Source: Mesorhizobium sp. B2-1-1 (GTDB lineage Bacteria > Pseudomonadota > Alphaproteobacteria > Rhizobiales > Rhizobiaceae). Taken from it: a DNA stretch of 64,000 nt. Shown in pieces: positions 1-19,827 of this stretch. The translations under genes were made by a program, and so were the position numbers. Position 1 is the first letter of the stretch, and every line of letters starts with the position of its first letter. The DNA is taken from assembly GCF_006442975.2 (NCBI RefSeq), contig NZ_CP083954.1, positions 5,525,501-5,589,500 on the forward strand, in the 5' to 3' direction. Below the pieces are notes generated by a model that had not been told where the DNA came from, made no database searches, and saw only the letters and a program-made list of their open reading frames with translations.

Positions 1-236
1 TCTACCAGATGATGGCGTATGCCCATCTCTACAAGGCACCCCGGCTGACTCTGCTCTATCCCCATCACGAGGGGCTCGGCGACAAAGAGGGCGTTCAGGC
101 GCAGTTCCTGATCACGGGTCTGGAGACGGTCCTCGAGACTGCAAGCGTCGACGTGGCCGAAGGAAAGGACATGGTGACACGCCTGAGAAACACCATACTC
201 CTCGCGATCACGAAGGAGCATTCGGTTCCCCAGTGA
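1..236 (+). CDS. mcrC: McrC-like restriction component, C-terminal fragment
   Basis: The reading frame is open from the left edge and stops at TGA 234-236, so only the last ~78 codons are present. The motif YQMMAYAHLY followed by LTLLYPHHEGL resembles the C-terminal part of McrC-family proteins, which pair with the McrB GTPase to cut modified DNA. The partner mcrB would lie outside the window. It converges on the minus-strand methylase cassette, which fits a defence island. Family recognition is from a short segment, so the call is moderate. Confidence 0.65.
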   Translation, partial: YQMMAYAHLYKAPRLTLLYPHHEGLGDKEGVQAQFLITGLETVLETASVDVAEGKDMVTRLRNTILLAITKEHSVPQ

Positions 237-451: not shown

Positions 452-844
452 CTAATGGGCACGAGGAGGCAGTTGTAGGACTCGCGCGGTGATGGCCTTT
501 GGATGGCGGTCAATGGCCTTGCCGCTGCTATGGCCCGACGCGACTTCGACAAAGCCTACCCGCCCGTGCGTTCGCACGTTCTTTGGCAGCACTTCATCCT
601 GCGAACCCTCCCGTACCCATAGGTTCTTCAGCGCCGCATCGAGGTCACCGCAAGCGCTCTCGGCGACGTAGGTCGGTCAAGGAGTGCCTAAGGCTTAGTT
701 GATCACCAGCGTCAGCCGCCGGTCGCCCGACACGCGACAGAATTCACCGGGGAGAAGCGGTCCGCCCAGTTTGAAGTCTTCCATGATCGCAAGCTCTCGG
801 CGGTTCTAGATCAGCGATCCCCATGCGAAAATCGCGATCCTCAT
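452..844 (-). pseudogene. gamma-glutamylcyclotransferase-like gene with three in-frame stops
   Basis: Reading from ATG 844-842, which overlaps the methylase TGA as ATGA, one frame gives IFAWGSLI, then GPLLPGEFCRVSGDRRLTLV, then TYVAESACGDLD and AALKNLWVREG, ending at TAG 452-454. The opening resembles the [FY]xYGSL signature of the gamma-glutamylcyclotransferase-like fold, and later blocks resemble such cyclotransferase-like proteins. Three stops interrupt this single frame: TAG at 806-808, TAA at 695-697 and TGA at 677-679. No indel is needed to join the blocks, so decay was by point mutation. The start coupling suggests it was once the last gene of the restriction cassette. The family assignment is by eye. 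Confidence 0.6.
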
Positions 845-3800
845 TCGTAGTCTGTCTCGTCGTCACTTCCATCGTCGGCCAGTCCTGACCGAGCGAAAAT
901 GGCGTTGTGCTCTCTAATGTCAGCAAAAAAGCCTGGAACTATGCCAATACCCGAACGTTCGATAGCGTCATCAATGGCCACTATTTGGGCGGCACATCCA
1001 GGAAGAAAATAATTCCCAATCCGACCACGGTTGTCTTTGTAAACGTAGTTTTTCCTTAGTTCAGTTCGCAAAACAGCACCAAGCACGGCCAGTTCCGCCT
1101 TATACTTGGGTGAGAATAAAGTCGATGACACCGGGAAGCAGTCGAGCAGCCACTTTTTAAGATTGAAGCCATCTGATGCGACAGACCACCACCAATACCC
1201 TAGGGAACTGCAAAGCAACGCAAATACAATGTTCGCCTCTTCGTGCGTCCTGAATCGGTAGCCGGCAGTTCGTGCAGGAAGAGATGGCTTCCCATTCATA
1301 TCTGTCGTTTCCGGAATGTCTCGCCAAGCCGGAAACCAGTTATACGCTGTACCACCAACATAGACGGCGGGCTGTGGAAACTTTGGTGCCACAGATGAAA
1401 GCGTGGGGAACGAGATTGAGTCCCTAAGTTCAATCCCAAGCGGCAACTGTCGCGAGGTGAGATGTGCTAATGTCTTCGCTTGCACGTCGCTCCCGATTTT
1501 CGGCACGCGCGTTAGAGTCTCAACGTCGAATTCTGCATATCGAAGCACAGAAAACAAAGCATCCCGGGATTCAGCATTCCACCGCTGAAGCGCTGTTGTC
1601 GCATTTCGATGAGGTCTTGAGGACGATGCCCGTGAGAAGAGCGTGATTGAACATCGCGTTCTGACCTCATTACCAAAAAGAGCACTAGGTATGCGATCAA
1701 AATGCGACCACGTTGCCAGTGTCCCTTCGGCACTCAGTATTTTCCTTAGTTCTATGAATGGCCGCTTGGTCGAAAATGCAACTGAAAGTGGCAGTATCAT
1801 GCCAAACTGGCCAGAGTCCGACCGAAGCAATTTTAGGCTTCTCTCGACAACCAGAGTATAAAGGTCTTCGTCTCGGCTCCATCGCTCTAACGCACTTCGA
1901 AATGTACGTCTCAACAGGGGACGATCTATGTCACGGGGTATTTCCGCATACGGCGGATTTCCTATAATTACATCGAACCCCCCGCTCTCCATGATCCTGT
2001 AAAATTCGAGAAACCAGTGGAAGGGGTTGTGCGCCTTCAGCCACGTCCTATAAGATGAAACGTCAGAAATCTTAACTCCCGCTTCTATTGCAAGGTTTCG
2101 ATTTACATCGCCTTCCAGCGTTGCCAGACGCATCCTGAGGGCAATTTTATCATCAAGAGGAACTGTGCCATCACCTTGGATCTGTCGTGCCCGGAAAGCA
2201 TCAAACGTCTGCTGCAGATCGGCTGCGCTCTTTATGATTTTTCCAAGCGCATCATCGAAGTCGAGTTTACTCGTCAATGACTTCTTCAGTTCCGCAAGCG
2301 TCGCATAACCAACAAGCGTGTTTCCAGCGCGGATGTTGAAATCGATATCCGGCAATGGCTCGATGCCGAGGTTCTCGTGCTTCTGATCGGGATCGACCTG
2401 GGCGGCAAGTTTCAGGAACAGGCGGAGCTTACAGATCTCGACTGCCTCTTCCATGATATCGACGCCGAAGAGGTTGTTCAGGATGATACTCTTCAGCGTG
2501 AAATAGCGGGCGTTCGGGTGCGCGCCGACTTTCGTCAGCGTCGCCTTGAAGTCTTCGAACTTCTTCGGCGCGTGGACTTCGCCCGACCGTTCAAGATCGG
2601 CGACAAATGCTTCCATCCGGTCCAGGCACGTCTCATAAAGCGGTTCGAGAATATTGAGCGCGGCAAACAAGAACGCGCCGGAGCCGCAGGTCGGATCGAG
2701 AACAGTGACGCCTTCGATCGCCTTCCAGAAGGCGCGCAGCAAGTCTGGCCCTTCGCAGCGCTCGATCACGTCCTGGGCGAATTGCCGGATGTCGAGATTG
2801 AGCGTGATGAGATCGTTGATCTCACGGACCCCGCCCGTCGCCAATTTCGCCCGGACTTCGGCATAGCGGGTGCGCCGCGCGACGACTTCGCGCCAGATCT
2901 CGGTGGGCAAGCCGAAGTCGGCAGGCGCCTTCTGGTTCCATTGCGTTCGCGCTGAAACGTCCTCGATGCCGGCTGCGATCGCAGGTGGCAGCGCCTGTTG
3001 TGCGCCGTGCTTAACGGCGGTGTAGATATAGCGGTCGGGATCGTCGCGCAGATGATCCCAGATCGTCGGCCCGCCCGGATTCTCGAAGGCGACCTTGCAC
3101 TTTGTTTTTGCAGCGTCGAACAGGAAGGGGATCACCGTATTCTTCGAAATATATTCGGTGATGTCCTCCTTCGTGTAGTAGGCGCCCATCTGCTTCTGGT
3201 TGATGTATTTTTCGAAGATGTAGCCGAGAACGTCCGGATTGATCTCGTTGTCGTTGCGCAGCGGGCGCTCGTCGAGATGCCACTGATAGCGGTCGAAATA
3301 GGCGAAGATGCGAGTGAAGGCCTCGTCCGGAATCTTGATGTCGGGGCAGCGCTCCTCGATCGGGTGCTTTTCGAACAGGCCGCCATTCAGATAGGGAATG
3401 CGGCCGAGCAGCTTGTCGAGTTCCAGGTTGCGCGCTTTGCCACCAAGCCCCTCATGGAAGAGGCGCAGCAGGAAGTATCGGTAAAACGAGTAGAATTTGT
3501 CCTGGCCCTTTTCCTTCTGACAGCGGGCAAGCCGGTCACGGAGATAGTCGCGCTCGGCGTTCAAGAAGCCCTTCCGCTGCATGAAATAGATGAACATCAG
3601 CCGGTTGAGCATCAGTGACGCGTACCATTCCTTGTCCGCCAACTCCGTGATGCCGCTGATGAAATCGAGGAAGGCTTTATGCTCGGCCTTGAACTGGTCA
3701 TAGAAGCGCTTCGTAACGCGCTCGACATCGAAGGCGGCGCGCGCTCGCGCTGTCACATCGACGAGCGTAAGGGTGTTTTCTTCCGAAAGTGAGAACGCGA

Positions 3801-4203
3801 TGGCTTCGAGCTTTTGCAGGAAGCCGCGATTGCCCGATGAGGCGTACCAGAAGTGTTCCGGCACCGAAGCCGGCTTGCCGGCCTCACGCCGCGCCCAGCA
3901 CCAGATCTGCTCGGCGTGCTTCGAGTCCGTGAAGATGATGAGATGCTCGAGCGTCGTCTTGGCGACTTGCGTTTCGATCTTCTTTCGGGCGGCCCGATCC
4001 GGGATTTGCTGCCCGGTCGGCGCCTGACACACCCAAGCCACCATCCCGCGCTTTTCGGCGACCGCACGAAGCGTGTAGGTCGCACCGCTGATAGGGACTG
4101 AGAGGTCGGCGCTGTGCCGATCCCAGCCCAACTCCTCGATGAAGAGCTTCGCGAAGTCGAACTGCTCCAGCAGCTTCCTTGCTTTACCGGCGTTGAAGTC
4201 CAT
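841..4203 (-). CDS. Eco57I-type N6-adenine DNA methyltransferase (possible type IIG-like or DISARM-like)
   Basis: A 1,120-residue protein with an N6-adenine methylase core. SAM-binding motif I (DPTCGSGAFLF) lies near residue 505 and catalytic motif IV (IIGNPPYAE) near 743. The ~450 residues before the core are long enough for extra functions, but I could not identify a nuclease motif there. The ~370 residues after NPPY are the likely target-recognition region. The size and layout match Eco57I-like methylases found in type IIG, BREX-like and DISARM class 1 systems. It lies 15 nt downstream of the PLD-SNF2 helicase, so the two are probably co-transcribed. Its likely role is modifying host DNA so that the neighbouring helicase and nuclease spare it; that is inference from context. 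Confidence 0.85.
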   Translation of the reverse strand: MDFNAGKARKLLEQFDFAKLFIEELGWDRHSADLSVPISGATYTLRAVAEKRGMVAWVCQAPTGQQIPDRAARKKIETQVAKTTLEHLIIFTDSKHAEQIWCWARREAGKPASVPEHFWYASSGNRGFLQKLEAIAFSLSEENTLTLVDVTARARAAFDVERVTKRFYDQFKAEHKAFLDFISGITELADKEWYASLMLNRLMFIYFMQRKGFLNAERDYLRDRLARCQKEKGQDKFYSFYRYFLLRLFHEGLGGKARNLELDKLLGRIPYLNGGLFEKHPIEERCPDIKIPDEAFTRIFAYFDRYQWHLDERPLRNDNEINPDVLGYIFEKYINQKQMGAYYTKEDITEYISKNTVIPFLFDAAKTKCKVAFENPGGPTIWDHLRDDPDRYIYTAVKHGAQQALPPAIAAGIEDVSARTQWNQKAPADFGLPTEIWREVVARRTRYAEVRAKLATGGVREINDLITLNLDIRQFAQDVIERCEGPDLLRAFWKAIEGVTVLDPTCGSGAFLFAALNILEPLYETCLDRMEAFVADLERSGEVHAPKKFEDFKATLTKVGAHPNARYFTLKSIILNNLFGVDIMEEAVEICKLRLFLKLAAQVDPDQKHENLGIEPLPDIDFNIRAGNTLVGYATLAELKKSLTSKLDFDDALGKIIKSAADLQQTFDAFRARQIQGDGTVPLDDKIALRMRLATLEGDVNRNLAIEAGVKISDVSSYRTWLKAHNPFHWFLEFYRIMESGGFDVIIGNPPYAEIPRDIDRPLLRRTFRSALERWSRDEDLYTLVVERSLKLLRSDSGQFGMILPLSVAFSTKRPFIELRKILSAEGTLATWSHFDRIPSALFGNEVRTRCSITLFSRASSSRPHRNATTALQRWNAESRDALFSVLRYAEFDVETLTRVPKIGSDVQAKTLAHLTSRQLPLGIELRDSISFPTLSSVAPKFPQPAVYVGGTAYNWFPAWRDIPETTDMNGKPSLPARTAGYRFRTHEEANIVFALLCSSLGYWWWSVASDGFNLKKWLLDCFPVSSTLFSPKYKAELAVLGAVLRTELRKNYVYKDNRGRIGNYFLPGCAAQIVAIDDAIERSGIGIVPGFFADIREHNAIFARSGLADDGSDDETDYE

Positions 4204-4218
4204 CCCCAGCCCCTTTCA

Positions 4219-7200
4219 TCACACCGTCAGCCGCGCTAGCCCGAGCGAGCAGATGATCTGCGGTTCGCCAGAGTTTTCTTCATCCTGGATCAGGCAAAGC
4301 CGATCTTCCTCGCGAAGCGCCAAGACCAGCTCGGCCAACTTGTCATCGCTAATGCCGGTCTTCATCTGCCGGTTCAAGGTATCGGTTGCCGACTGGCGCA
4401 ACGGGAAGCGGTATACCTCTTCGATGGCTCTGCCGAGTTCAGGCAGATCAAACAGCGTGCCCTTAACCTTGTCAGCGTGACGCTTGAGCCGTTCGTAGGT
4501 TCGAAAACGCGCACCGGATGGGCGACCGAGCTGCCCGCCGACCTGCTTCTCCTCGGCAGATATATGCTCGACGCCCTTTGACACCATGGCGTGGTGTTCT
4601 TCCTGCCGTCGGACAACCGGTGTGTTCGGCTCGCAAGCCGCGACTTTCAGTATTTCGAATTGAGATTGGGTGACACTCTTGCCGTCCTTGTCCACCCACG
4701 CCAGAGCGTCGTTGCCCTGGGCTGTGCGCAGATAGACGAGAGCGCCATTGGGGCGCCCGTCCTGTGGCGTGTAGCTTTTGGTGGAATAGACGACCGAAGG
4801 GAGTTCCGGGACAGACTTCTGCAAAGCCGGATTTGCGTCGATCGCGTTTTTCCAGATCTGATAGGCGTAGGAAGCCAGATCGACCTCTCCCTCCGCTTCG
4901 CCTTCGAGAATGCCGGACTTCTCGTTGTAGAGATCGACAAGCTCGTCGTGCTCTCCTTCATCCTCGAAGAACGCTTCATCGGTTCCCACCACCTCGGCGT
5001 TTTCCTTCAGGCGCTGGCGGACGCGGGAGCGCAACTGGATCAGGCGCTCCACGCCATCAGCCGGCAAGAATGAGTAGCAGAGAATTTTCTCGGCCTTCTG
5101 CCCGATGCGATCTACACGGCCCGCACGCTGGATGAGCCGGATGATTGCCCACGGGAGATCGTAGTTCACGAGGATTGCGCCGTCCTGAAGGTTCTGGCCT
5201 TCGCTAAGCACATCAGTGGCAATTAGCACTCGGAGTTCGTCGTCCGGCTTGATCTTGTCGCGCTTGTTGTTGCTGCTCGGGCTGAACCGCCAGGCGAAGC
5301 TCGTCGGGTCCGAAGTCTCCCCAGAGACGGCCGCCATTGCCTTCAGACCGGCCCCCTTAAGCCGCCGCTCAAGATAACGAACGGTGTCTGCAAACTGCGA
5401 GAAGATCAGCACTTTTTCTTTCGGGTGCTTCTTGGTCAGCAATTCGAGCAAGGCGGCGAGCTTGGTATCTTTTGCGTGGTCCCAATCGCCGCAATCATCG
5501 AGTATCTTCAGAAGCCGAGCGCTGTCGGTCGTCAGGTCCTTCTTCAGCTGCGCTACGAACAGGTCGGGCCGAAGCCACTTGAACCGCCGCTTGAACTGGC
5601 CTGCATAGAGGCGATAGGTTTCCGCAGCTCGCGCCAGGAAGGCAGCCTCGTCGCGCAGATTAAGTGTTTCCGAGTCCTGCGTTTTCTCGTCTTCCCCCTC
5701 GGCAAACAGTTCAGCGTCGGCGCTTTGGTCATCCACATCTTCGTCGTAGTTGGCGGTGTCTAAGAGCCCTGCGTCTTGTGTCCCAAGCGGCAAAGGAAGA
5801 TCGTTCTCGATAGCGTGCAGGAAGATGTAGTTTCGAAGGACATGGCGTTCTAGCGATTGCTGAAAGGCCTCACCACTGCTTTCCAACCGCTTGAAGAGGT
5901 TGGTGCGACAGAACCCCATTAGGCGCTTGCCGGCGCGAGAAAGATCATCCAGCTGCTTTGCCTCGTTTGGAGTGGGCGGTTTGTGGGGTTTTGCCGCAAC
6001 GTAGTTTCCCATGCCGTAGCGTGGCAAGTGCATGGCATTGATCGCATTAACGACCGGGGCAGCGTAAAGCCTTGCGTACTGATCGGCGGCATCCTTGTCG
6101 TCGATCTTGAACCGAAGCGTGCGAGGCACGCGTTCCGGGAAATAGGAACGTGACCCATCTTCAAACGTGAGGAACTTTCGCCCATTTACAGGATCGGTCT
6201 GTGCATAGTTATCCTGGATGAAAGTGCGTGTGCGACGAACCATGTAGAGGCGCATCAGCTCGCGCCAATCGTCCGTGTAAGCACTCTTCTCGAAAGCCGC
6301 GAGAGATCTAACCGGACATTGGTGCCGCCGGATGAACTCGGTTTCGCCGATGTCCTGAAGCAGGCGCTCTGGGCGCACGCCGATGTCGCGATCATCGGGA
6401 ATAAACAGGCGCAATTGGCTTGAAAGGTCGCCGTAAGTCTTGTTGTAGGGAGTGGCGGAAAGAAGGATGCAGCGGCTTTCGTTCTCCGCCAGATACTCTT
6501 GAATCGCCCGATACCGGCGTCCTTCTCGGTTTCGCAAGTTGTGGCTCTCGTCGATCAGCACAACGCGGTAGCGGCGAAGATCCGGCAGTTCGCGGGTGGC
6601 CCGTGTTACCGAAAGCACCTTGGCGATCAGGCGGTATTCCGAGACGTAATCCTCCCACATCTTCACGAGGTTCTTCGGGCAGATGATCAACGTCTCTGTG
6701 AAGTGATCGTCCTGGAAGATTTTTGCCAAAGCGGTAGCCATAAGCGTCTTGCCGAGGCCGACCACGTCGCCAATCAGGACGCCGCCACGCTTGTTAAGGT
6801 GATGCGCCGCGATCTTTACCGCGGCCTCCTGATAAGCGAAGAGGCGCTTCCCAAACTCCGGTGGAATTCGAAACTCGTTGAGGCCGGCACGCGCTTCCTG
6901 GGCGAGATGGTAGGCCATCTTCACGTAGATCATGTAGGGTTCGAGCGGTTCTTCACGCGCCCAACTTTCCTCAATGACCTCGATCAATTCATCGGTGATG
7001 TCGATGCACCAGCGGTCGGACCAACGATCATCGAACCACTTGGAGAGCTTGGTCGTGGCATCATGGTCAAGCACATCGACGTTCAACTCGCCCTGCTTGG
7101 ATAGGCCGGAAAGAGTGAGGTTGCTGCTACCCAAAAAGCCGGTGATCGGGTTATTAGGGTCAGGGCGGAATAGAAGGTAAAGCTTCGCGTGTAGCGGATG

Positions 7201-7605
7201 CTTCAGGAAAAGCCGAACCGTGACCTGCTTAGATTTCAGTTGCTCGGCCAACCGACGCAAGCCGGCTTCGTCGGCGTTGTTCGGCATGCCTAGGGTCAAT
7301 TGAACCCGGAATTCCTCGGCTAGCTTCTTCTTAAGGCGTAGCGCGGTCTGGTTATCGAGGGGCTGCTGTTCCTTGCCTGTGCCTAATCCAACCCGCAATT
7401 CATCCTGCGGAAGGCGCTGCATTCCTACAAGCAAGCGGCATTGGTTGCCGTCGCCGCCTGACCACGCGGAAATCAAGTCGTCGATCGATTTCCAGCCGCG
7501 TAGATTGAAATAGCCTACGCAGAAGTCACCGCGGGCGGAAATCTGCAGAGTTTGACGAAGAGCGGGAAGGAGGCCAGATTCTATGTTGTCGAATATTCGT
7601 GGCAA
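4219..7605 (-). CDS. phospholipase D-like / SNF2 helicase fusion, defence-associated
   Basis: An 1,128-residue protein. The N-terminal PLD-like half carries one HxK motif (HAKLYLL, about residue 135) followed by GSSNLTLSG. A full SNF2/superfamily 2 helicase follows: Walker A GDVVGLGKT near 278, DESHN near 350, LLSATPYNKT after it, LIFSQFADTVRYL near 728, and motif VI QRAGRVDRIGQ near 825. PLD domains with this pattern act as nucleases or DNA binders, and SNF2 enzymes translocate on DNA. DISARM uses a separate SNF2 helicase (DrmD) and a separate PLD protein (DrmC), whereas here the two are fused. It overlaps the upstream small ORF by 80 nt. A role in recognising or cutting unmethylated DNA is inferred. 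Confidence 0.85.
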   Translation of the reverse strand: MPRIFDNIESGLLPALRQTLQISARGDFCVGYFNLRGWKSIDDLISAWSGGDGNQCRLLVGMQRLPQDELRVGLGTGKEQQPLDNQTALRLKKKLAEEFRVQLTLGMPNNADEAGLRRLAEQLKSKQVTVRLFLKHPLHAKLYLLFRPDPNNPITGFLGSSNLTLSGLSKQGELNVDVLDHDATTKLSKWFDDRWSDRWCIDITDELIEVIEESWAREEPLEPYMIYVKMAYHLAQEARAGLNEFRIPPEFGKRLFAYQEAAVKIAAHHLNKRGGVLIGDVVGLGKTLMATALAKIFQDDHFTETLIICPKNLVKMWEDYVSEYRLIAKVLSVTRATRELPDLRRYRVVLIDESHNLRNREGRRYRAIQEYLAENESRCILLSATPYNKTYGDLSSQLRLFIPDDRDIGVRPERLLQDIGETEFIRRHQCPVRSLAAFEKSAYTDDWRELMRLYMVRRTRTFIQDNYAQTDPVNGRKFLTFEDGSRSYFPERVPRTLRFKIDDKDAADQYARLYAAPVVNAINAMHLPRYGMGNYVAAKPHKPPTPNEAKQLDDLSRAGKRLMGFCRTNLFKRLESSGEAFQQSLERHVLRNYIFLHAIENDLPLPLGTQDAGLLDTANYDEDVDDQSADAELFAEGEDEKTQDSETLNLRDEAAFLARAAETYRLYAGQFKRRFKWLRPDLFVAQLKKDLTTDSARLLKILDDCGDWDHAKDTKLAALLELLTKKHPKEKVLIFSQFADTVRYLERRLKGAGLKAMAAVSGETSDPTSFAWRFSPSSNNKRDKIKPDDELRVLIATDVLSEGQNLQDGAILVNYDLPWAIIRLIQRAGRVDRIGQKAEKILCYSFLPADGVERLIQLRSRVRQRLKENAEVVGTDEAFFEDEGEHDELVDLYNEKSGILEGEAEGEVDLASYAYQIWKNAIDANPALQKSVPELPSVVYSTKSYTPQDGRPNGALVYLRTAQGNDALAWVDKDGKSVTQSQFEILKVAACEPNTPVVRRQEEHHAMVSKGVEHISAEEKQVGGQLGRPSGARFRTYERLKRHADKVKGTLFDLPELGRAIEEVYRFPLRQSATDTLNRQMKTGISDDKLAELVLALREEDRLCLIQDEENSGEPQIICSLGLARLTV

Positions 7606-8026
7606 CTAAACCCTCCCGATCGACCGGCCCCGATAAGAGGCGTGCCCCTTCGCCAAGCCCTTTCTTGTCAAAAACGCTACTGGCTTCGACTAGCGCCAGC
7701 AGCGATTGATGCCACTGAGTCGCGCTGATTTCATGTTGGAACATGAAACGATATTTCGCCAGCCTCAAGCTTGGTCTAAACGGGACCCTCCAGCTGTAGG
7801 CTTCCATCGGCGGTACTTCCCCTTCTCGTTGCATTATCTCCAATTGCGGACGGTCAGCATGCGCGAAGAGTTTCAGGCGCCGGCAGGCGTCCTCAACGTC
7901 GGTGACAACCAGACCGAAACTCCGTAATGAGCCAATTATCGCGCCTCCCCTGACCCACTCGTCGGATCCGGAGCTTTCCCGCTGCACCCGCAGCGGACCA
8001 CGACTTCGTCTTCCGCAAATCCTCAA
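7526..8026 (-). CDS. hypothetical small protein of the defence cassette
   Basis: A 166-codon frame fills most of the gap between the nuclease and helicase genes. Its TTG start overlaps the TGA of the upstream gene (TTGA at 8026-8023), an arrangement typical of coupled translation. The 3' end overlaps the start of the helicase gene by 80 nt in another frame. The middle, from LRSFGLVVTDVEDACRRL through FRPSLRLAKYRFMFQHE, reads like an ordinary folded domain. The C-terminus is S/R/P-rich where it overlaps. I do not recognise the family. It could be a real subunit, or an extended frame over a non-coding gap whose only support is position. Confidence 0.4.
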   Translation of the reverse strand: MRICGRRSRGPLRVQRESSGSDEWVRGGAIIGSLRSFGLVVTDVEDACRRLKLFAHADRPQLEIMQREGEVPPMEAYSWRVPFRPSLRLAKYRFMFQHEISATQWHQSLLALVEASSVFDKKGLGEGARLLSGPVDREGLVATNIRQHRIWPPSRSSSNSADFRPR

Positions 8027-11000
8027 AGTTTATCGAGATCATCGAACACATGCAGAGCGATCCGCTCCCTCATGTGCTCCCAGGCATACTCCATCGGGAC
8101 CATGTGCTTGAACACTAGGTGTCCTTCGATTTTGGAGCTCCCACTCTGGTTCACGTATCGCTCGAGCGCTTTGTGCTCCTTCGAAATCAGATCGACGCGA
8201 TCAAGATGCTTACGGAGCAGGTCCGGTTTTCCGTCAGATCGGGTCACCCCACGGAAATCGGACAACTGCTCGGCAATCTCGCCTTCTGTCTTGCGAAACT
8301 GAACGTCTTTGCACTCAATCAACAGAGTCCTGGGAGAGTCATCGCGCCACGCCAAGACGTCGACATCGCCAAAGTCGCGTTCGAACCCTTTCGCAAGCAG
8401 TTTCGTTACAGGAACTTCTGTTTCCGTCTGCCAGCCAAGTTCCTTGAGCCGCGCCGATACCTCTTGAGCAAACTCAGACCCTTGCCGGTCTCGCGATGCC
8501 CCAGCCCATCGCTTCATAGCGGGCGACAACTGCCATATCGGGAAATCTCCTCGGTGGTAGTTACCGAACATGTAGACGAATGAGTCTCGTAGGATTCCTG
8601 GAGCGACCAAGAACGTAGGATCAGCTTCGTCATCGACTTGGATCAGTGGCTTTCGCAGTATCGAAAGCCGCCGTCGAAATCGCCAAGGAAAGAGGTCCTT
8701 GGCATGGTAGCCGTCCGGTATTTCACGCCATGACGAGCGACTCTTAAACGTGAGAAACGCGACCAGATTTTCGACTTGGGTCCGATTCAGATCGACACCA
8801 TCTAACTCCGCGTTCAACACGTCGCTACGCCGCAATTCGAGGACGGCTTGGGTTCTACGAATCCCTAGATTTTCTACGAAATCGACGAACTTGCGTATCG
8901 TATCTAGTGACGCGCCAAACTGCTCTTCGAGGGCAACCAAGAAATTGGATGCAAGTTCAAGATCGTCGGTTTCCTGAAATTCCGGTTCCTTCAGATTGCG
9001 CGCGTAATCGCGAACCCGTTTGTCGATCCGAGATCGAGTGGTTGCACGTCCGAACGGCTGAAGTACATTTTCTTGGAAGGACACATTCGCTTGGACGTCA
9101 CCCAGCGCTGTAACCTGAATTCTAGGTTCCATCGCATCCCACCGAATTGCGTCGGACCAGCCGCCCATACCTCCGATCATCATTATCGTCGCCATCATTC
9201 GCGACACATCTAAGCGGCCAGCTATAGCTCCGCCGTCAAGCGGACATTCGCAAATCGCGAATTCAACCAACAGGCGGGATGCTTGGAAGACAGCGTTAAG
9301 CTCGGCCTCATGGTGCAGAATGCCTTCCAGCGTAGCGTCACGATCTTTGTGAAGAGCTAAAACAGCTGCGGCCGTCCGATGCCATCGTTCTCGATCAAGC
9401 GCTGCACGTTCGTGGTTTAAGAGCGCAAATCGGATCAAAGATTTTCGATCGAATGATCTCAGCTTCGCGCAAAGATCGTCTTCCAGCACTTTCACCAGCC
9501 TGTTGAGGAATGACGTACAGGCCTCTCGTCCAGTGATGTCGCCGCCTTCGCTTCGCGCGCGAACGCGCCATCCAAGCCCGAGCTTAATCAACGCGCCGTC
9601 ATCATTGTCGATAGTAAGGGGGGGCCGTCCAGCTGACCTTTGAACAAAGTCGCGGAAATTTCGTGCAGGGAATGGGTGGCTCTGACGTGCGTCAGGTCCC
9701 GGTATTATCTCGCTTAAGAGTGCTCCACAGCGAGCTTGGTCAAGACTGATGCCTGAGAGGGAAGCAAACCCTTCGACAATGCGTTGAACGAAGGCAGTTT
9801 CGGCCACGTTTTCCGGGTTGAAAACTGCATGGTCAAATCCGTCAGCGATTTCGAGGTCGACAGTGGACCCATGCGCTGATGAACTTATGAGGCCCAACGT
9901 CGCCTCCAACGTCATGAATTCATCTGGTATCCCCGCTCGGCGATCACCGAGGGATCCCTTGAACGCCGCTCTCAGCAAAACTGGACCAGATGGAATCGTC
10001 TCGAACGCCACTTCAAGAACTGGCGCGATTAGGCAAATCCAAGTCCGAAGCGTTTGAAAGTGCTGGAAGGCCATCGACCCGGCCACGCCCTCGTCGGTCA
10101 CAAGGCGAATCCACCAAGCACGCTGAGCCGTTTCGAAGACCCCGAGCGGCCAGCGAGATGTTGTGTCAGTGACCGCAACATAGAACGACTTCTCGTTGTC
10201 TTCAGCAAACATAGAGGCTCGTTCTTTGCGGATTGGAATCCAGTGGCCCTCAATGTCCCGACATGAGTGCACATCCCAGATTTCCGCGACTTCCTTGCGC
10301 GTCTTCAGCAGACCGTTTTGCTCGATCATCACGAAGTTGCGCCCGTCTCCTAAGCCGAATTCGATAGGCAGGCTGGCATGAGGGACAAGGTGGCCGCCTA
10401 GCTGTCGAACCCACGCGACCAGATTCAACAGGCCGTTTATGTTTTGCAGCTCTACGCCCATTTCAGCCAGGCGATTCCGCCCGTCCAGCAGGCGCCACAA
10501 CGACAGGGGTTTGAAATCGGGAATCCAACTCAGCGTGAATAAATCCGACGCCCCGACAAACTCGACGGGCCAATTCTCTCTCGCCTTTTCGCTGAAGAAG
10601 TCGACGACTCCTCTCCCGAGGCCGCATGGGACAAGGAACGTGACGCCCCCTTTGAACCCTTCGCTAGCGCTTGCCTGTTGCCACGCAAAGTCAATCCATT
10701 GATCGACATCGGACGCCAAGCCATCGCGTTTCTCTTTCTGAGGGAAAATTCCGACTAGGCCGCCCTCCGCAAATTCATCCAGCGTGTCGGAGAAGAAGAT
10801 GAGGTTGATAAAGCGTCCAGCATCGGCGCGCATGGTTACACCAGCCAACATCCCATTCTCGGTTTTTCGAAATTCAAGCTCAGCACCTGAACCACCGCCT
10901 AATAGAGGCAATTCTGCAAATGCATCGGCGAATTCGTGCGCCAGTGTCGCAGCGAATGCTTCACGTAGTTCGAAGAGCTCCATCGTCTCGATGACATAGC

Positions 11001-11823
11001 GGCGCAAGGAAGCGCTAACCGCACTGGGCAGGATCAGGTAGGTATCGGCTTCGGAGAAGACTACGGGATACCGCTCCAGCAGCGAGTTTCCGATTTGGTC
11101 CGATTGCAGATCGAGCCTGCGACGCGGATCAAAGCCAAATTCGGCGAGATCGTCGGGGCTGATGCCTAGCGCCGACAAATCCTCCCGCGAAAATCTGACG
11201 ATTTGCGATACCGCGCCAAGCCGATCTCGTAGAGTGCGCGGCAGCAGCAGATGGGGGTTTTCATCGCCGATTGCATATCGCTTCAGTCCCGCGCGCTGAC
11301 ACACAGCTTCCGACAAAGCGAGGAGCGCGTACACACGGTTTCGAAGGAGACGGAAAACACCGTTGTCTGGCAAACGCTCCAGCGTGTTCAATAGACGTTG
11401 GGTATAAAAGCCAGCTGATTCCCAGACACCTTCAAGGAGCCTGAAATCTCCCCTAGGGGTCACGATCAGAGAAACAAAAATATCTTCTGCCGGGTCTTCT
11501 AGCCGACCGGTCATACCTCGCCCGAGTTCTGCGAAAATGGGCCCGACAACCTTGGATGAAGGCTTTTTGGAGCCATTGCCTATCGCTAGTGAAAGATGCA
11601 CCAGCGCTTCCAGCCGGACGCAGTTGGCTTGCAGGATCGGCTGTGTGAGCAACCCCCCAAAGATTGCGGCCAGTTGGACTGGCTGAAACTGCGAGAGCTT
11701 TCCCAGCGCGATCTCGTGCTCTTTAGCAACATTGGCAAGATTCATCCCGCCGAACCCAAACATTGGTTGCGAGTTGAGCATCTGTTCGAACAGTGGCGGA
11801 ATATCGGGAGCTTCGCGTTCCAT
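8023..11823 (-). CDS. large defence protein with C-terminal PD-(D/E)XK nuclease domain
   Basis: About 1,266 residues from ATG 11823-11821, which follows a GAG-containing ribosome site. A TTG at 11889 would add 22 residues and looks less likely. The first ~1,100 residues are not recognised. The last ~150 contain a restriction-nuclease fold signature: FAQEVSARLKELGW, then GDVDVLAW supplying the acidic residue, then LLIECKDVQF supplying the ExK pair near residue 1170. This resembles PD-(D/E)XK nucleases of the NERD/Mrr kind. It is the first gene of the minus-strand cassette and probably its DNA-cleaving part. The long unassigned N-terminal region is the main unknown of this system. Confidence 0.7.
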   Translation of the reverse strand: MEREAPDIPPLFEQMLNSQPMFGFGGMNLANVAKEHEIALGKLSQFQPVQLAAIFGGLLTQPILQANCVRLEALVHLSLAIGNGSKKPSSKVVGPIFAELGRGMTGRLEDPAEDIFVSLIVTPRGDFRLLEGVWESAGFYTQRLLNTLERLPDNGVFRLLRNRVYALLALSEAVCQRAGLKRYAIGDENPHLLLPRTLRDRLGAVSQIVRFSREDLSALGISPDDLAEFGFDPRRRLDLQSDQIGNSLLERYPVVFSEADTYLILPSAVSASLRRYVIETMELFELREAFAATLAHEFADAFAELPLLGGGSGAELEFRKTENGMLAGVTMRADAGRFINLIFFSDTLDEFAEGGLVGIFPQKEKRDGLASDVDQWIDFAWQQASASEGFKGGVTFLVPCGLGRGVVDFFSEKARENWPVEFVGASDLFTLSWIPDFKPLSLWRLLDGRNRLAEMGVELQNINGLLNLVAWVRQLGGHLVPHASLPIEFGLGDGRNFVMIEQNGLLKTRKEVAEIWDVHSCRDIEGHWIPIRKERASMFAEDNEKSFYVAVTDTTSRWPLGVFETAQRAWWIRLVTDEGVAGSMAFQHFQTLRTWICLIAPVLEVAFETIPSGPVLLRAAFKGSLGDRRAGIPDEFMTLEATLGLISSSAHGSTVDLEIADGFDHAVFNPENVAETAFVQRIVEGFASLSGISLDQARCGALLSEIIPGPDARQSHPFPARNFRDFVQRSAGRPPLTIDNDDGALIKLGLGWRVRARSEGGDITGREACTSFLNRLVKVLEDDLCAKLRSFDRKSLIRFALLNHERAALDRERWHRTAAAVLALHKDRDATLEGILHHEAELNAVFQASRLLVEFAICECPLDGGAIAGRLDVSRMMATIMMIGGMGGWSDAIRWDAMEPRIQVTALGDVQANVSFQENVLQPFGRATTRSRIDKRVRDYARNLKEPEFQETDDLELASNFLVALEEQFGASLDTIRKFVDFVENLGIRRTQAVLELRRSDVLNAELDGVDLNRTQVENLVAFLTFKSRSSWREIPDGYHAKDLFPWRFRRRLSILRKPLIQVDDEADPTFLVAPGILRDSFVYMFGNYHRGDFPIWQLSPAMKRWAGASRDRQGSEFAQEVSARLKELGWQTETEVPVTKLLAKGFERDFGDVDVLAWRDDSPRTLLIECKDVQFRKTEGEIAEQLSDFRGVTRSDGKPDLLRKHLDRVDLISKEHKALERYVNQSGSSKIEGHLVFKHMVPMEYAWEHMRERIALHVFDDLDKL

Positions 11824-11914
11824 GGACCACTCGTAAAATTCTCGACAGCAATGGCTGTCAGACCGGTCCGATAATAAAGGACTGCACAAGTTTAGCGAGT
11901 AGTATGTTCCCGTT

Positions 11915-12126: not shown

Positions 12127-12369
12127 CTAGCCCACCAGCTTTTCATTCCGTTCTACCACTGCGAACGTCGCTTTCCCCTTTCCGGCCCACAGTTCGCGCG
12201 CCCGTTGACCGTCCTCACTCTGGAGCTTGTCCGCCATCCAGATGAGCGCGCCGAACATCATGGCGCGATCGTCACCGGTCAGATCGACTATCCCGGCCTT
12301 GACGACGAGACCGCCGAGTTCGATGAGCTGCCGTGTGCGCTTGCGACGCTCGATCTGACACGTGCGCAT
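12127..12369 (-). CDS. traD: conjugal transfer protein TraD (Ti-type)
   Basis: A small basic protein whose core (RTRQLIELGGLVVKAGIVDL, then TGDDRAMMFGAL) is typical of the TraD proteins beside Ti-type oriT sites. These accessory factors are thought to help assemble the relaxosome. I chose ATG 12369, just after the traC stop at 12371, which gives 80 residues. An upstream TTG at 12459 would overlap traC extensively. Being divergent from traA across the oriT is the classical rhizobial arrangement. Confidence 0.75.
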   Translation of the reverse strand: MRTCQIERRKRTRQLIELGGLVVKAGIVDLTGDDRAMMFGALIWMADKLQSEDGQRARELWAGKGKATFAVVERNEKLVG

Positions 12370-12370
12370 G

Positions 12371-12697
12371 TCATGCCGAGCCAGTGCCGCTTGCCGTCGA
12401 TTGAGTGCCGCCCGGTTGCGCTGGAGCGCTGCGCCGGTTGCTTTCAGATGCCGGAGCAATTCGCCTTGGTCGGCTCTCGAAAAACATCACCCCACGCTTG
12501 GCCCACGCCTCACGCTTTGCGGTGTCTTTCGTCTCGGCAATTGCGACCAATGCGCCGGCCAGTTCGTCGGTATTGAGCTGATCGGCGCCGGTGGCGATCA
12601 CCAGTTCGCCAAGCTGCTGCACCTTTCGCGTTTTGAGTTCCCGCGCTTTGTCTTCCAGTGCCTTCAGTTCCGCGTCGAAGTTCCGTGGTTTGCGCAT
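12371..12697 (-). CDS. traC: conjugal transfer protein TraC (Ti-type)
   Basis: A 108-residue charged protein starting MRKPRNFDAELKALEDKARE, with LGELVIATGAD and a central ETKDTAKREAWAKRG block, as in TraC accessory proteins of rhizobial conjugation modules. ATG 12697 is preceded by GGAGGT four bases upstream, which favours it over the ATG five codons earlier. It abuts traD in the same operon, and oriT lies just upstream. A relaxosome accessory role is inferred from the family. Confidence 0.75.
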   Translation of the reverse strand: MRKPRNFDAELKALEDKARELKTRKVQQLGELVIATGADQLNTDELAGALVAIAETKDTAKREAWAKRGVMFFESRPRRIAPASESNRRSAPAQPGGTQSTASGTGSA

Positions 12698-12805
12698 GTC
12701 TACCTCCATTGATTGTCGATCTCTGGATGATAGTTGAGCGTCCACCGGAAGGCTTCAGGGTTGCCGAGACAGCCCGGGACGGGCTGGTCCATCCCGAGAT
12801 TTTTT

Positions 12806-12845
12806 CGAGGGAGGGCGCGCTTATACGTCGTGCCGACGTACGCTT
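12806..12845. other. oriT: oriT: MOBQ-type origin of transfer
   Basis: Between divergent traC and traA lies GAGGGCGCGCTTATACGTCG. Its GAGGGCGCGCTTA part differs by one base from the reverse complement of the RSF1010 nic core (TAAGTGCGCCCTC), the region shared with Ti-plasmid oriT. It is followed by a perfect inverted repeat TACGTCG-tgc-CGACGTA at 12824-12840. Location, sequence and the adjacent MOBQ relaxase agree. The nick would fall near 12820-12823 by analogy. Confidence 0.8.
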
Positions 12846-12869
12846 TGCCGTGCAAATGATCTGGTCGCG

Positions 12870-15800
12870 ATGGCGATCTATCATCTTCACGTCAAGGTCA
12901 TTGGCCGCAAGGCAGGCTCAAGCGCTGTCGCGTCCGCCGCCTACCGCTCGGCTTCGCGGCTGCGCGACGAGCGCATTGATCGCACGCATGACTTCTCGGC
13001 CAAGCGCGGTGTCCTCCATTCCGAGGTGATGCTGCCGGAGGATGCACCGGAGGCCTGGCGCGACCGCGAGAGGCTGTGGAACGATGTCGAGGCGTTCGAG
13101 GTGCGCAACGACGCGCAGTTGGCTCGTGAGGTGGAGTTTGCCCTCCCGCGCGAACTCAGCCAGGCGCAAGGCATCGAACTGGCGCGCGACTTTGTTCAAG
13201 CCGAGTTTGTCAGCCAGGGCATGGTCGCCGATCTCAATGTGCATTGGGACAGGGCGGAGGATGGCAGCCCCAAACCTCATGCTCATGTCATGCTCACCAT
13301 GCGGGCCGTGGACCAGAATGGTTTTGGTCCAAAGGTTCGAGACTGGAACCGCACCGAACTGGTCGAGCGCTGGCGCGAGCGGTGGGCCGAGCTGGCCAAT
13401 GAGCGTCTGGCCGAACTCGACATCGACGCCCGCATCGATCATCGCAGTCTGGAAGCGCAGGGCATTGCGCTCGAGCCGCAAACCCAGATTGGTGCACCGG
13501 CCCAACGCATCGAGGGCAGTGGCCTTGCTGCTGGCGACATTGAAGCGGATCGCGCCGAACTGCATCGCGAGATCGCGCGCAACAATGGTGCGCGCATCAT
13601 TGCCGATCCATCCGTGGCGCTGGATGCCATCACGCATCAGCAGTCGACCTTTATCCGAAAAGACATTGCGAAGTTCTCGCATCGCCACAGCGACGGAATG
13701 GAGCAGTTCAACGAGGTGGTGGCAGCCATCAGCAACGCGCCCGATCTGGTCGAACTCGGCAAGGACGGACGCGGCGAAGACCGTTTCACCACAAGGCAGA
13801 TGATCGACACCGAACAGCGCCTGCATCGCGCGGCAGAGCGTATCGATTTGGACGAGCGTCATGCGGTGAATGACGTACATCGCGAGGCAGCACTGGCGCA
13901 GGCTGCGCAACGCGGGCTTGTCCTTACGGGCGAGCAGAGCGATGCGCTGGCGCATATCACCGACGGTCGCGGTCTTGGTGTCGTCGTCGGCTTTGCCGGA
14001 ACGGGCAAGAGCGCCATGCTGGGCGTTGCGCGCCAGGCATGGGCAGCGGGGGGCTACGAGGTTCGAGGTGCCGCACTCTCCGGCATTGCCGCCGAGAATC
14101 TGGAAGGCGGATCAGGCATCCCGTCACGCACCATCGCCAGCATGGAGCATGGCTGGGGACAGGGCAGGGATCTGCTCACCGCGCGCGATGTCCTGGTGAT
14201 CGATGAAGCCGGCATGGTCGGCACGCGCCAGTTGGAGCGCGTGCTCTCCCATGCGGCTGACGTTGGCGCAAAAGTCGTCCTCGTCGGCGATCCGCAGCAG
14301 CTACAGGCAATCGAAGCCGGCGCTGCATTCCGCTCTATCCACGAGCGACACGGCGGCGTCGAAATCGGCCAGGTGCGCCGGCAGCGCGAGGACTGGCAGC
14401 GCGATGCAACGCGCGATCTGGCAACCGGCAGGATCGGCGCTGCGGTCAGCGCCTACGACGCGCAAGGCATGGTGCATCAAGCTGCAACGCGCGACGAAGC
14501 GCGAGGGGAACTCGTCGAGCGCTGGGATCGCGACAGGCGGGCGCATCCAGAGGCAAGCCGGATTATCCTCACCCACACAAACGACGAGGTGCGCGCCCTC
14601 AACCAGGCCGCGCGCGATCGCATGCGCGCTGCTGGCGATCTCGGCGACGAGGTTCAGGTGAATGTGGAACGCGGTGCAAGGGCCTTCGCGAGCGGCGACC
14701 GTGTCATGTTCCTGCGCAACGAGCGCGGGCTCGGCGTCAAGAACGGTACGCTGGGCATCGTGGAGGAAGTCAGCACACAGAGTATGGCCGTGCGGACCGA
14801 CGACGGCAGCTCGGTACGGTTCGACCTGAAAGACTACGCGCACATCGACCACGGCTATGCCGCAACCATTCACAAGGCGCAGGGCATGACCGTCGACCGC
14901 ACCCATGTGCTCGCCACGCCGGGCATGGATGCGCATGGCAGTTACGTCGCCCTGTCGCGGCATCGGGACATCATGGACCTGCATTATGGTGGCGATGACT
15001 TTACAACCCACGAACGCCTCGTCCAGACGCTGTCACGCGACCGCGCCAAGGACATGGCGTCGGATTACGAGCAGCTCGACCCGGCGCAACACTATGCCGA
15101 GCGGCGCGGCATCACGTTCCGCGAGCGCGTGGTCGAGATCATGCGCCGGATCATTCCGGAGAAGTTGCGCGACAGGATCGGCGGGCTGGTCGACGGGTTG
15201 CACTCGCCCGGAGACGGCGAGCCCAGGCAGGACCGTGGATCTGGGCCGGGAAGGGAAAATGTTGGGGCGCGGATCGGAGATGTTGGCGCCACGCCCGAAA
15301 GGAGAACTCCCGCCACGGGAGTGTCGCGCGACACGGATATGCCGGTGGACGCGGAAGCGGCGTTGCGCAGCGCTCGCACCCAGTCGCTTGTTCGTCACGC
15401 GCGCGCTATCGACGCGATCCTCACTACTCGAAATGCGGATGGCCAGGCCAGTCCCGAGCAGATGCGCGAATTGAGGGATGCCCGTACCGCTTTCGAGAAG
15501 GTGCGGCCACATGGCTGGCGCGATGCCGAAGCGGCTTATGTGAAGAATCCCGAACTTGTCCGCGAGGCGGGGGCCGGCCGCGTCAACCGCATCGTGCTCG
15601 CTCTCCAGCTTGAAACGGAAATCCGCACCGGGATGGACATCGACCCAGGCCGCCGCGCCGACCGGTTTGTGGAACGTTGGCAAAAGCTCGATCGGACGGG
15701 ACAGGAGCAATATCAGGCCGGCGACATGTCCGGCTACAAGTCAACGCGTTCGGCCATGTCCGATATGGCCAAGAGCCTCGAACGCGATCCTCAGCTTGAA

Positions 15801-15923
15801 TCCCTATTGGCCAATCATAAGAAGGCGCTCGGCATTCGGATCGAATCCGGCCGTCGTCTCGGGGCGGAACTCGCCTTTAACTATGGCATCGGGCTCGGCC
15901 GAGGCAAAGGCATCGGAATCTGA
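12870..15923 (+). CDS. traA: Ti-type conjugative relaxase TraA
   Basis: A 1,017-residue relaxase-helicase that would nick oriT and unwind the transferred strand. The N-terminal MOBQ relaxase domain opens MAIYHLHVKVIGRKAGSSAV and has the metal-binding HAHVMLT motif near residue 136. A RecD-like helicase follows: Walker A GFAGTGKSAML near 376, Walker B VIDEAGMVG, VGDPQQLQAIEAG, and the late GYAATIHKAQGMTVDRTHV and YVALSRHRD motifs. The C-terminal third is of unclear function. No mating-pair (trb/virB) genes are in the window, so mobilization would need transfer genes elsewhere. It lies 25 nt from the oriT repeat. Confidence 0.93.
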   Translation: MAIYHLHVKVIGRKAGSSAVASAAYRSASRLRDERIDRTHDFSAKRGVLHSEVMLPEDAPEAWRDRERLWNDVEAFEVRNDAQLAREVEFALPRELSQAQGIELARDFVQAEFVSQGMVADLNVHWDRAEDGSPKPHAHVMLTMRAVDQNGFGPKVRDWNRTELVERWRERWAELANERLAELDIDARIDHRSLEAQGIALEPQTQIGAPAQRIEGSGLAAGDIEADRAELHREIARNNGARIIADPSVALDAITHQQSTFIRKDIAKFSHRHSDGMEQFNEVVAAISNAPDLVELGKDGRGEDRFTTRQMIDTEQRLHRAAERIDLDERHAVNDVHREAALAQAAQRGLVLTGEQSDALAHITDGRGLGVVVGFAGTGKSAMLGVARQAWAAGGYEVRGAALSGIAAENLEGGSGIPSRTIASMEHGWGQGRDLLTARDVLVIDEAGMVGTRQLERVLSHAADVGAKVVLVGDPQQLQAIEAGAAFRSIHERHGGVEIGQVRRQREDWQRDATRDLATGRIGAAVSAYDAQGMVHQAATRDEARGELVERWDRDRRAHPEASRIILTHTNDEVRALNQAARDRMRAAGDLGDEVQVNVERGARAFASGDRVMFLRNERGLGVKNGTLGIVEEVSTQSMAVRTDDGSSVRFDLKDYAHIDHGYAATIHKAQGMTVDRTHVLATPGMDAHGSYVALSRHRDIMDLHYGGDDFTTHERLVQTLSRDRAKDMASDYEQLDPAQHYAERRGITFRERVVEIMRRIIPEKLRDRIGGLVDGLHSPGDGEPRQDRGSGPGRENVGARIGDVGATPERRTPATGVSRDTDMPVDAEAALRSARTQSLVRHARAIDAILTTRNADGQASPEQMRELRDARTAFEKVRPHGWRDAEAAYVKNPELVREAGAGRVNRIVLALQLETEIRTGMDIDPGRRADRFVERWQKLDRTGQEQYQAGDMSGYKSTRSAMSDMAKSLERDPQLESLLANHKKALGIRIESGRRLGAELAFNYGIGLGRGKGIGI

Positions 15924-16050
15924 CCATCCGATTTGCCTCCGTTTCCACGCCACATCGCGGTGGGGCGGGAATGCGTCTTGCCTGACCGATGCAGCCTGTT
16001 TCGTGTGAACCATCAAATATCAGAGGCACTCAGGAGGAGACAGGCGAGCC

Positions 16051-16257
16051 ATGCCCGAACCCGATCGCATCATCCGCAGCAGAACTGTCCTTGCCCGGAC
16101 CGGCCTGTCCCGTTCAACCATGTATCGCAAGATCGCCGAAGGCACGTTCCCGGCCCAAGTCAAGATCAGCTTAAACGGTGCGGGATGGCGCGAATCCGAT
16201 ATCAATCGGTGGGTGGAGGATCCGGTATCTTGGAGGCCGAGGCGAGAGGGTGATTAA
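16051..16257 (+). CDS. AlpA-family helix-turn-helix regulator
   Basis: A 68-residue protein with the AlpA/excisionase-like HTH: ILARTGLSRSTMYRKIAEG in pattern (here VLARTGLSRSTMYRKIAEG), then FPAQVKI and the ending WRESDINRWVED. AlpA-type proteins control integrase or excision genes on prophages and integrative elements. AGGAGG lies 13-20 nt upstream of the ATG. It follows traA on the same strand and precedes an IS insertion and an integrase stub, which fits an element-borne regulator. Confidence 0.85.
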   Translation: MPEPDRIIRSRTVLARTGLSRSTMYRKIAEGTFPAQVKISLNGAGWRESDINRWVEDPVSWRPRREGD

Positions 16258-16470
16258 ATCCGATTGCGAGAGCTGGTGAAATGATAGCATCTATATCATC
16301 TTGCCATGCTTTTTCTGTGGATAATGGAACCGAAGCACCGGTATGATTTTAGATTGGGTAATTTTGAGGGTATCGATCAATACCCTTACTGACGATTTCT
16401 AATTAAAATCAAATACATAGCTTACACTTCGATTCCGCCTCTGGCACCATTTCCCCCTATGTACGGCCCG
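16258..16470. other. AT-richer spacer with a small inverted repeat
   Basis: This spacer between alpA and the IS481 element is clearly richer in A/T than its surroundings and has no gene. It contains GGGTAT-cgatca-ATACCC at 16368-16385, which could be a weak terminator or an operator downstream of alpA. Nothing else is recognised. Confidence 0.35.
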
Positions 16471-17684: not shown

Positions 17685-17710
17685 CAACACCTCCGGCCAA
17701 AAGCCAAAAG

Positions 17711-17750
17711 TGTTACCCATGTGTCCGGTACAAAACGTCACCTATGTCTC
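17711..17750 (-). repeat. right terminal inverted repeat of the IS481 element
   Basis: Read on the minus strand it begins GAGACATAGGTGACG and ends ACATGGGTAACA, matching the left end at 16471-16510. Confidence 0.8.
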
Positions 17751-17808
17751 GGGTCGCTCACTAAGCCGCTGATTTTCCTGAAGCGTTATTTTCCAAGGGT
17801 TTGACCCA

Positions 17809-17843
17809 CCTCGACTGTCACACACGCTGTGATACAGTCGAGG
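17809..17843. promoter_or_regulatory. palindrome ahead of the integrase stub
   Basis: CCTCGACTGT (17809-17818) and ACAGTCGAGG (17834-17843) form a perfect 10-bp inverted repeat. With two mismatches it extends to 16-bp arms around a three-base centre. It ends 10 nt before the integrase ATG. It could be an operator for an element regulator such as AlpA, or a hairpin at the 5' end of the transcript. Role inferred from position. Confidence 0.45.
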
Positions 17844-17853
17844 AATGGACGAC

Positions 17854-18674: not shown

Positions 18675-18725
18675 GATGCCCTCTCCGCTGCGCGAAAGTC
18701 GAAAATTAGGGAGCTAGCGACTTCC

Positions 18726-19103: not shown

Positions 19104-19105
19104 CG

Positions 19106-19801: not shown

Positions 19802-19827
19802 GATGCGAACAAGCTCCCTGTGTTGCG

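Follow-up and report, generated by a model that had tools for sequence, protein, structure and literature searches.

A putative PLD-SNF2/methylase restriction pair beside an Upx homologue in a likely Mesorhizobium genomic island: probably two defence units rather than one four-gene system

We examined four open frames on the minus strand of a 64,000-nucleotide stretch of the Mesorhizobium sp. B2-1-1 genome (contig NZ_CP083954.1, positions 5,525,501 to 5,589,500; referred to here, at its full length, as the window), which a first-pass annotation had read as a single uncommon anti-phage cassette. The comparison with relatives indicates that the cassette is probably two independent defence units lying side by side and not one new four-gene system. 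The first is a gene of the Upx family, and the second is a PLD-SNF2 nuclease-helicase gene followed by an Eco57I-type methylase gene, a pair which, judged from its sequences, is a putative ATP-dependent restriction-modification unit. The neighbourhoods in relatives, named beforehand as the refuting test, decided against the four-gene cassette, since within the flanks available Upx and the pair lie apart there and the genes do not travel together. The features on which the analysis is based are as follows.

841..4203, minus strand: Eco57I / type IIG-like (N6-adenine) DNA methyltransferase, 1120 aa (Pfam, PADLOC, motifs)
1024-1893, minus strand: recognition region of the methylase, taken as codons 771-1060, a low-identity C-terminal region
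4219..7605, minus strand: PLD (HKD) nuclease fused to an SNF2-type helicase, 1128 aa (Pfam and aligned motifs)
7183-7191, minus strand: HAK of PLD-SNF2, residues 139-141 (motif alignment)
7526..8026, minus strand: 166-aa frame (orf166), a doubtful gene with no match in PADLOC, Pfam or NCBIfam
8023..11889, minus strand: Upx homologue, 1288 aa (PADLOC, NCBIfam, phmmer to PDB 9wuf)
8308-8361, minus strand: PD-(D/E)XK-type motif D1177-E1192-K1194 of the Upx homologue (alignment)

The four frames are present with the spacing first described, namely a TTGA overlap (8023-8026), an 80-nt overlap (7526-7605) and a 15-nt gap (4204-4218). The length of 1266 aa initially given for the large protein holds from an internal ATG at 11823, while the full open frame encodes 1288 aa. 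The predicted domains were also recovered: the methylase matched the Eco57I family (Pfam E 1.3e-24) and PLD-SNF2 matched PLDc_2, RE_NgoFVII (an NgoFVII-type PLD), SNF2-rel_dom and Helicase_C. PADLOC and hidden Markov model searches of all four proteins named three of them (the methylase, PLD-SNF2 and Upx) and left orf166 matchless. Among 199 genomes of the family, the only matches to orf166 were the frame itself and one 18-bit stretch containing stops; with no convincing relative in that sample, a role as a conserved linker was rejected, and the frame may be no gene.

Neighbourhoods of the Upx homologue and of the pair

The ~1,100-residue N-terminal part of the large protein had been left unassigned, an assessment that no longer holds as the protein is homologous over its whole length to the anti-phage protein Upx, reportedly described by Gao et al. 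2020. PADLOC Upx (PDLC02221), the sole PADLOC family matched, covers residues 29-1272 of 1288 with an E value of 1.4e-246. The NCBIfam Upx model NF042954 gave 922 bits, which is below its equivalog cut-off of 1900, and thus the protein is referred to as a divergent Upx-family homologue and not as an Upx equivalog. A solved structure of a relative, PDB 9wuf (phmmer 1.2e-166, residues 29-1273), was named 'Restriction endonuclease' by its depositors. The restriction endonuclease-like motif noticed at the C-terminus, D-(14)-E-x-K, was borne out, with D1177, E1192 and K1194 kept in 49/49 aligned rows (the window protein and 48 relatives, out of 53 that reach at least 1100 aa; the five divergent relatives L072-L074, L076 and L078 were left out).

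We collected 66 Upx loci from GTDB genomes, using an alignment of five Upx proteins and two C-terminal peptide patterns. The tblastn search of these loci with the four window proteins gave at most 39 bits for PLD-SNF2 and at most 62 bits for the methylase within the available flanks, which extend at least 1.5 kb downstream of Upx in 56 loci and at least 5 kb in 49. In the nearest relative found, Mesorhizobium sp. LHD-90 (78% protein identity over the last 414 residues), DNA similarity to the window runs from 9263 to 8022 and stops at the end of the Upx gene, with ~10 kb available beyond. When the frames of the 66 loci and the window were clustered, no partner-like family appeared among the 25 largest clusters, as named by eye. 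The largest non-Upx clusters were an insertion sequence (IS) transposase (9 loci), a transporter-like family (7) and a recombinase (5), followed by a relaxase, a Fic-like protein, a LysR-like regulator, an integrase and an IS element with 4 loci each. The Upx-family protein, with its conserved C-terminal nuclease motif, thus has no fixed partner seen in other hosts, as with known Upx. It is also scarce, being detected in 2/199 genomes of the family sample and 2/297 of the order sample, the window's genome counted in each.

Relaxase genes of one family were observed near Upx in four loci (L055, L071, L031 and window 12162-16269), with an orientation relative to Upx that varies among L055, L071 and the window. 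This suggests repeated capture of Upx by relaxase-bearing elements.

The pair was followed from its PLD-SNF2 protein, which matched 519 plasmid records; 28 of these cover at least 80% of PLD-SNF2, and 20 of the 28 show at least 35% identity. We inspected 15 of the 20 (H12-H14, H22 and H25 were left out) together with two shorter matches, from PCC 7339 and Leptolyngbya, giving 17 plasmid loci. Three sampled genomes (G550, G1047 and G1125) and four virus-collection loci with a full-length PLD-SNF2 brought the total to 24. Two loci cut by contig ends (L082 and L099) and two distant partial matches without a methylase match (L100 and L101) were set aside. PLD-SNF2 was found in 3/385 and 4/398 sampled genomes, including that of the window.

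PLD-SNF2 was full length in 21 of the 24 loci and, in all 21, a methylase gene came next on the same strand downstream. This methylase was complete in 18 (L006-L009, L083, L087, L089, L091, L095-L098, L102, L103 and L119-L122) and broken in three, all of them plasmids: it is truncated or split by IS3 elements, according to the annotation, in L088 (9001-11999) and L090 (11279-15366), and is reduced to a 286-aa remnant in L117 (9352-10209), where the neighbouring PLD-SNF2 is full length. The pair is found in Cyanobacteriota, Actinomycetota and Thermodesulfobacteriota, presumably also in Pseudomonadota from the window's kin, and often on plasmids. The actinomycete methylases are distant from that of the window, for example with 24-25% identity in two Rhodococcus plasmids. 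In seven more distant HKD-SNF2 loci the arrangement differs, as a methylase-like gene lies upstream instead in five (L092 and L109-L112) and no methylase is annotated in L113 and L114. On this comparative evidence the pair is conserved as a two-gene restriction-modification-like unit. In the literature searched, the exact layout of this pair was not found described.

The motifs of both proteins are intact. The methylase matched PADLOC REase_MTase_IIG (PDLC03628) with 967 bits over residues 1-1021 and carries DPTCGSG at 503 and NPPY at 749, with DP(T/A)CGSG and NPP(Y/W) kept in 13/13 methylases; despite this full-length type IIG match, no conserved E-x-K was seen by eye in its N-terminal 150 residues (9-row alignment). 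PLD-SNF2 carries HAK (139-141), GSSN (159-162), DVVGLGK, DESH and QRAGR, and these strings, with HAK or HGK at the first, are present in 11/11 aligned proteins; in a second set of 13, L095 alone was without the DESH string.

No consistent third gene of the pair emerged from clustering. In 17 pair loci including the window, to which eight loci (L116, L118 and L123 among them) were added later and left out of this clustering, the largest of the 14 clusters listed, apart from the pair itself, were a DprA-like gene and two families of recombinases, each in 4 loci, then two toxin-antitoxin-like genes (3 each). In three cyanobacterial plasmids (L007 13487-14120, L087 8356-8989 and L089 11484-12114) the latter two small genes separate PLD-SNF2 from the methylase, one of the two being annotated as a VapC-type toxin, and L116 likewise carries them beside its methylase. 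In the virus-collection loci L095-L098 one gene family recurs near the full pair (e.g. L096 15683-16339); the similarity of the L096 copy to DprA is weak (Pfam 20.8 bits, cut-off 29.6) and the family was not found in the window.

These neighbourhoods bear directly on the possibility that Upx, orf166, PLD-SNF2 and the methylase form one complex acting as a single modification-guarded system. The genes of the window do lie on the same strand, overlapping or nearly abutting, and the orf166 frame connects Upx to the pair. However, within the available flanks the pair was found at none of the 66 Upx loci, the 7 plasmid records with an Upx match do not overlap with the 17 inspected for the pair, and no Upx match was detected in the available flanks of the other 7 pair loci. 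With no recurring Upx partner in the 25 largest neighbour clusters and no convincing relative of orf166, we consider a four-gene complex very unlikely.

Comparison with known restriction and defence systems

The first-pass annotation had also proposed a modification-guarded restriction unit that resembles neither DISARM nor BREX. This part stands for PLD-SNF2 and the methylase, which on sequence grounds look like a restriction-modification unit of neither type, and fails for the inclusion of the large protein. The activities of class 1 DISARM, namely SNF2 helicase, PLD and Eco57I-like methylase, are shared with the pair, but in the pair PLD and SNF2 are fused. DrmB, which we take to be the DUF1998 family (PF09369, now MZB), had no match in the window's genome, the control search being positive in 8/14, and the NCBIfam match to the DrmD helicase (138.6 bits) was far below the cut-off of 610. 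DISARM was rejected on the missing MZB/DUF1998. Similarly, BREX was rejected as PglZ had no match in the genome (control search positive in 2/14), and PglX reached 56.9 bits in NCBIfam against a cut-off of 500.

A closer resemblance is seen with the DUF499-centred BREX-related systems of a 2026 survey, of which Type-2 (Hma-like), in the part of the survey consulted, combines an HKD-Swi2/Snf2 helicase and an N6-methylase, both common to the pair, with DUF499 and DUF3780 (PMC12839542). The pair could accordingly be imagined as the minimal derivative left after a Hma-type system had shed its DUF499 ATPase, and the match of PLD-SNF2 to the HmaA model (3.4e-26) would agree with this. DUF499, on the other hand, had no match in the window's genome (control search positive in 1/14), for which a DUF499 / Hma system as such was rejected, and among 9 plasmids, 4 virus records and 4 whole genomes (17 in all, the window's genome included) it was detected in one, with no match in 15 of the 16 others. 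In this one record, Microbacterium plasmid A, DUF499 belongs to a separate Hma-type locus that lies ~16 kb away from the pair and has a helicase (HmaA 1,294 bits) and a methylase of its own. DUF3780 was found in 0/17, with the control search likewise 0/14. In a tree of 25 helicases, which contains one Hma helicase and no Type-2 BREX-related helicase, the window's and 16 other pair helicases formed one clade with a support of 0.997. On the DUF499 result and this tree, descent from a Hma-type system by loss of DUF499 is regarded as unlikely.

HKD nuclease-SF2 helicase fusions, sometimes with a DNA methylase as in the pair, are also known from the CxC ABC-ATPase (PbeABCD) systems; these are centred on a CxC ABC-ATPase and a DndE-like protein, and their methylases are cytosine methylases, as far as the consulted part of a 2024 survey describes them (PMC10853773). 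The PbeA model reached only 45.7 bits here, which sets the pair apart. The best PADLOC model for this helicase family was the candidate C3a139 (HKD+Snf2), with 126-202 bits in the 5/5 HKD+Snf2 members scanned, including that of the window; no description of C3a139 was found, and it is set beside the pair by its name alone.

Apparent exchange of the recognition region and proposed division of labour

Identities were compared across 13 loci (78 pairs), using the region boundaries of the window protein and leaving out the actinomycete L009, L088, L090 and L091, whose methylases are distant or broken. The mean identity was 58% for PLD-SNF2, 55% for the methylase core and 24% for the recognition region. 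Between Synechocystis PCC 6803 and PCC 7338, PLD-SNF2 is 97% identical, the methylase core 48% and the recognition region 18%. The methylases V096 and V097 share 84% of their core and 20% of their recognition region, and the latter region of V097 shows 50% identity with G1047 and 45% with G550, both of which are more distant. Recognition-region identity did not track helicase identity (Spearman 0.13, p 0.26) but tracked that of the methylase core (Spearman 0.73), which in turn was weakly related to helicase identity (Spearman 0.28, p 0.014); these p values are rough guides because the 78 pairs are not independent. In our reading, recognition regions and also whole methylases have been exchanged while the motor-nuclease stayed conserved. 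Concerning the target of one of these methylases, Hagemann et al. 2018 reportedly proposed that slr6050 on pSYSX, which is probably the Synechocystis methylase of L007, makes asymmetric GAm6AGGC. In the part consulted of a related 2019 paper slr6050 is not mentioned (PMC6560206).

In the mechanism that we propose, the Eco57I-like enzyme would use its C-terminal target-recognition region to find a short sequence, where it would methylate adenine on host DNA. At an unmethylated site, by analogy with SauUSI, CglI and Type III/ISP enzymes, it would recruit or license PLD-SNF2, whose SNF2 motor would move along the DNA and whose PLD (HKD) domain would cut. Type III enzymes recognise their site with the methylase subunit and cut with the helicase-nuclease, as tabulated in one source (table, PMC4267653), and the pair would share out its tasks in this way, with a PLD nuclease in the cutting role. 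The three plasmids in which a full-length PLD-SNF2 adjoins a broken methylase likewise fit a nuclease that would be unable to act without its methylase. A bolder reading, held at slightly less than even confidence, would place the pair in a separate two-gene ATP-dependent restriction-modification class, in which the N6-methylase would serve as an exchangeable specificity subunit for marking as well as for targeting, and a near-invariant PLD-SNF2 would work with any methylase paired with it. Such a class would amount to a Type III-like logic with a PLD nuclease at its base, without DUF499, PglZ or DrmB.

Other PLD enzymes are organised differently. SauUSI, a Type IV enzyme, resembles the pair in having the PLD nuclease and the SF2 motor in one chain; unlike the pair, it is a single-protein enzyme that carries its own recognition domain and cuts methylated targets only, and it has been proposed to shred DNA after translocation, according to the portion of the source consulted (PMC7913695). 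CglI and NgoAVII have a PLD nuclease with an HxK motif, an SF2 ATPase and a methylase in common with the pair, but their nuclease (R), bearing a B3 recognition domain, is separate from their ATPase (N) and their methylase produces 5-methylcytosine, in the accounts as far as consulted (PMC4267653, PMC5737866). The pair likewise has a PLD nuclease and an SF2 ATPase, but R and N do not occur as separate proteins and the methylase is not of the C5-cytosine kind; the fused PLD-SNF2 is accompanied by an Eco57I (N6-adenine) methylase with its own variable C-terminal region.

Several points weigh against our interpretation. SauUSI, CglI and NgoAVII all carry the recognition domain on the nuclease side and not on the methylase; Pfam shows none on PLD-SNF2, where a hidden one in residues 881-1128 was not searched for. 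The recognition-region percentages hang on one alignment, and the methylases of Anabaena and PCC 7338, which belong to a longer, divergent group, are possibly misaligned in this region. Three of the 24 loci are off the pattern, with a broken PLD-SNF2: in Synechocystis PCC 7339 (L116 2293-11685) it is split by an apparent inversion beside a whole methylase, the reverse of the IS-broken cases; in Leptolyngbya (L118) it is truncated with no methylase annotated; and in Ornithinimicrobium (L123) an incomplete helicase accompanies an MmeI-type methylase fragment. As for the separation from Upx, the neighbourhood tests reach as far as the available flanks, which are shorter than 1.5 kb downstream in 10 of the 66 loci, one locus (L079) rests on a 60-residue match, and the spacing in the window is compatible with a single transcript, so that a local link with Upx is possible.

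The first of these points leads to a simpler logic, as in CglI and NgoAVII, in which PLD-SNF2 would recognise the site and cut alone and the methylase would merely protect the host. Both known systems combine a PLD nuclease and an SF2 ATPase with a methylase that stands alone, and the PLD domain of the pair matches the NgoFVII restriction-endonuclease PLD family. This logic nevertheless appears improbable to us: in addition to the Pfam result, PLD-SNF2 proteins 97% identical to each other are paired with methylases 18% alike in their recognition regions, so that PLD-SNF2 would need to retain a single specificity as its methylase varied, and PLD-SNF2 remains full length beside the broken methylases of three plasmids.

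The probable surrounding island and implications

The features flanking the two units are as follows.

1..236, plus strand: 3' end of an McrC gene (open frame), an island neighbour and not part of the pair
12870..15923, plus strand: MobA/MobL relaxase-helicase, TraA-like (Pfam MobA_MobL 5.8e-74, AAA_30)
16428..16453, plus strand: likely attR, an imperfect copy of the tRNA-Phe 3' end, right of the relaxase
L084 2289-2364, left of the window: tRNA-Phe gene
L084 18420-19736, left of the window: full McrC gene (Pfam McrBC 2.1e-72)

The McrC-like neighbour first noticed from its end in the window was thereby confirmed by the full gene. From the tRNA-Phe gene towards it lie a tyrosine integrase, a YhaN/YhaO-like pair, a nuclease-SF1 helicase protein and an AAA_5 ATPase. 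The attR candidate is a 27-position match (92.6%, E 0.012), and no other stretch of the window matches the tRNA region better. The defence genes are thus probably located in a tRNA-Phe-anchored island of ~33.7 kb, with the integrase at its left end and the imperfect tRNA-end repeat at its right. Of five same-genus genomes, three match the DNA left of the integrase over ~2.1 kb and two match only its last 330-450 bases. An empty site at the right edge was not shown, as window 17700-20700 matched as fragments of at most 62 bases in four of these genomes and not at all in the fifth.

Within the probable island, L084 5723-10602 encodes an SMC-type ATPase and a calcineurin-type nuclease (Pfam AAA_27 and Metallophos), the YhaN/YhaO-like pair named above. 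The 1,091-aa protein of L084 12668-15943, beside McrBC, combines RNase_H_2 (RecB-like) with an SF1 helicase, is partly similar to Mokosh MkoA (159 bits) and is possibly a further defence gene of the island. Several proteins encoded in window 19106-27042 are rich in repeats, apparently secreted and, by eye, curlin-like; the single one scanned (19106-19831) had no Pfam match.

In place of a supposed new four-gene system, the outcome is an Upx-family gene and a compact PLD-SNF2/methylase pair. The natural exchange of the recognition region makes the targeting of one motor-nuclease by swappable methylases directly testable, and the pair would connect restriction enzymes of the PLD type to the HKD-helicase effectors found in BREX-related systems.

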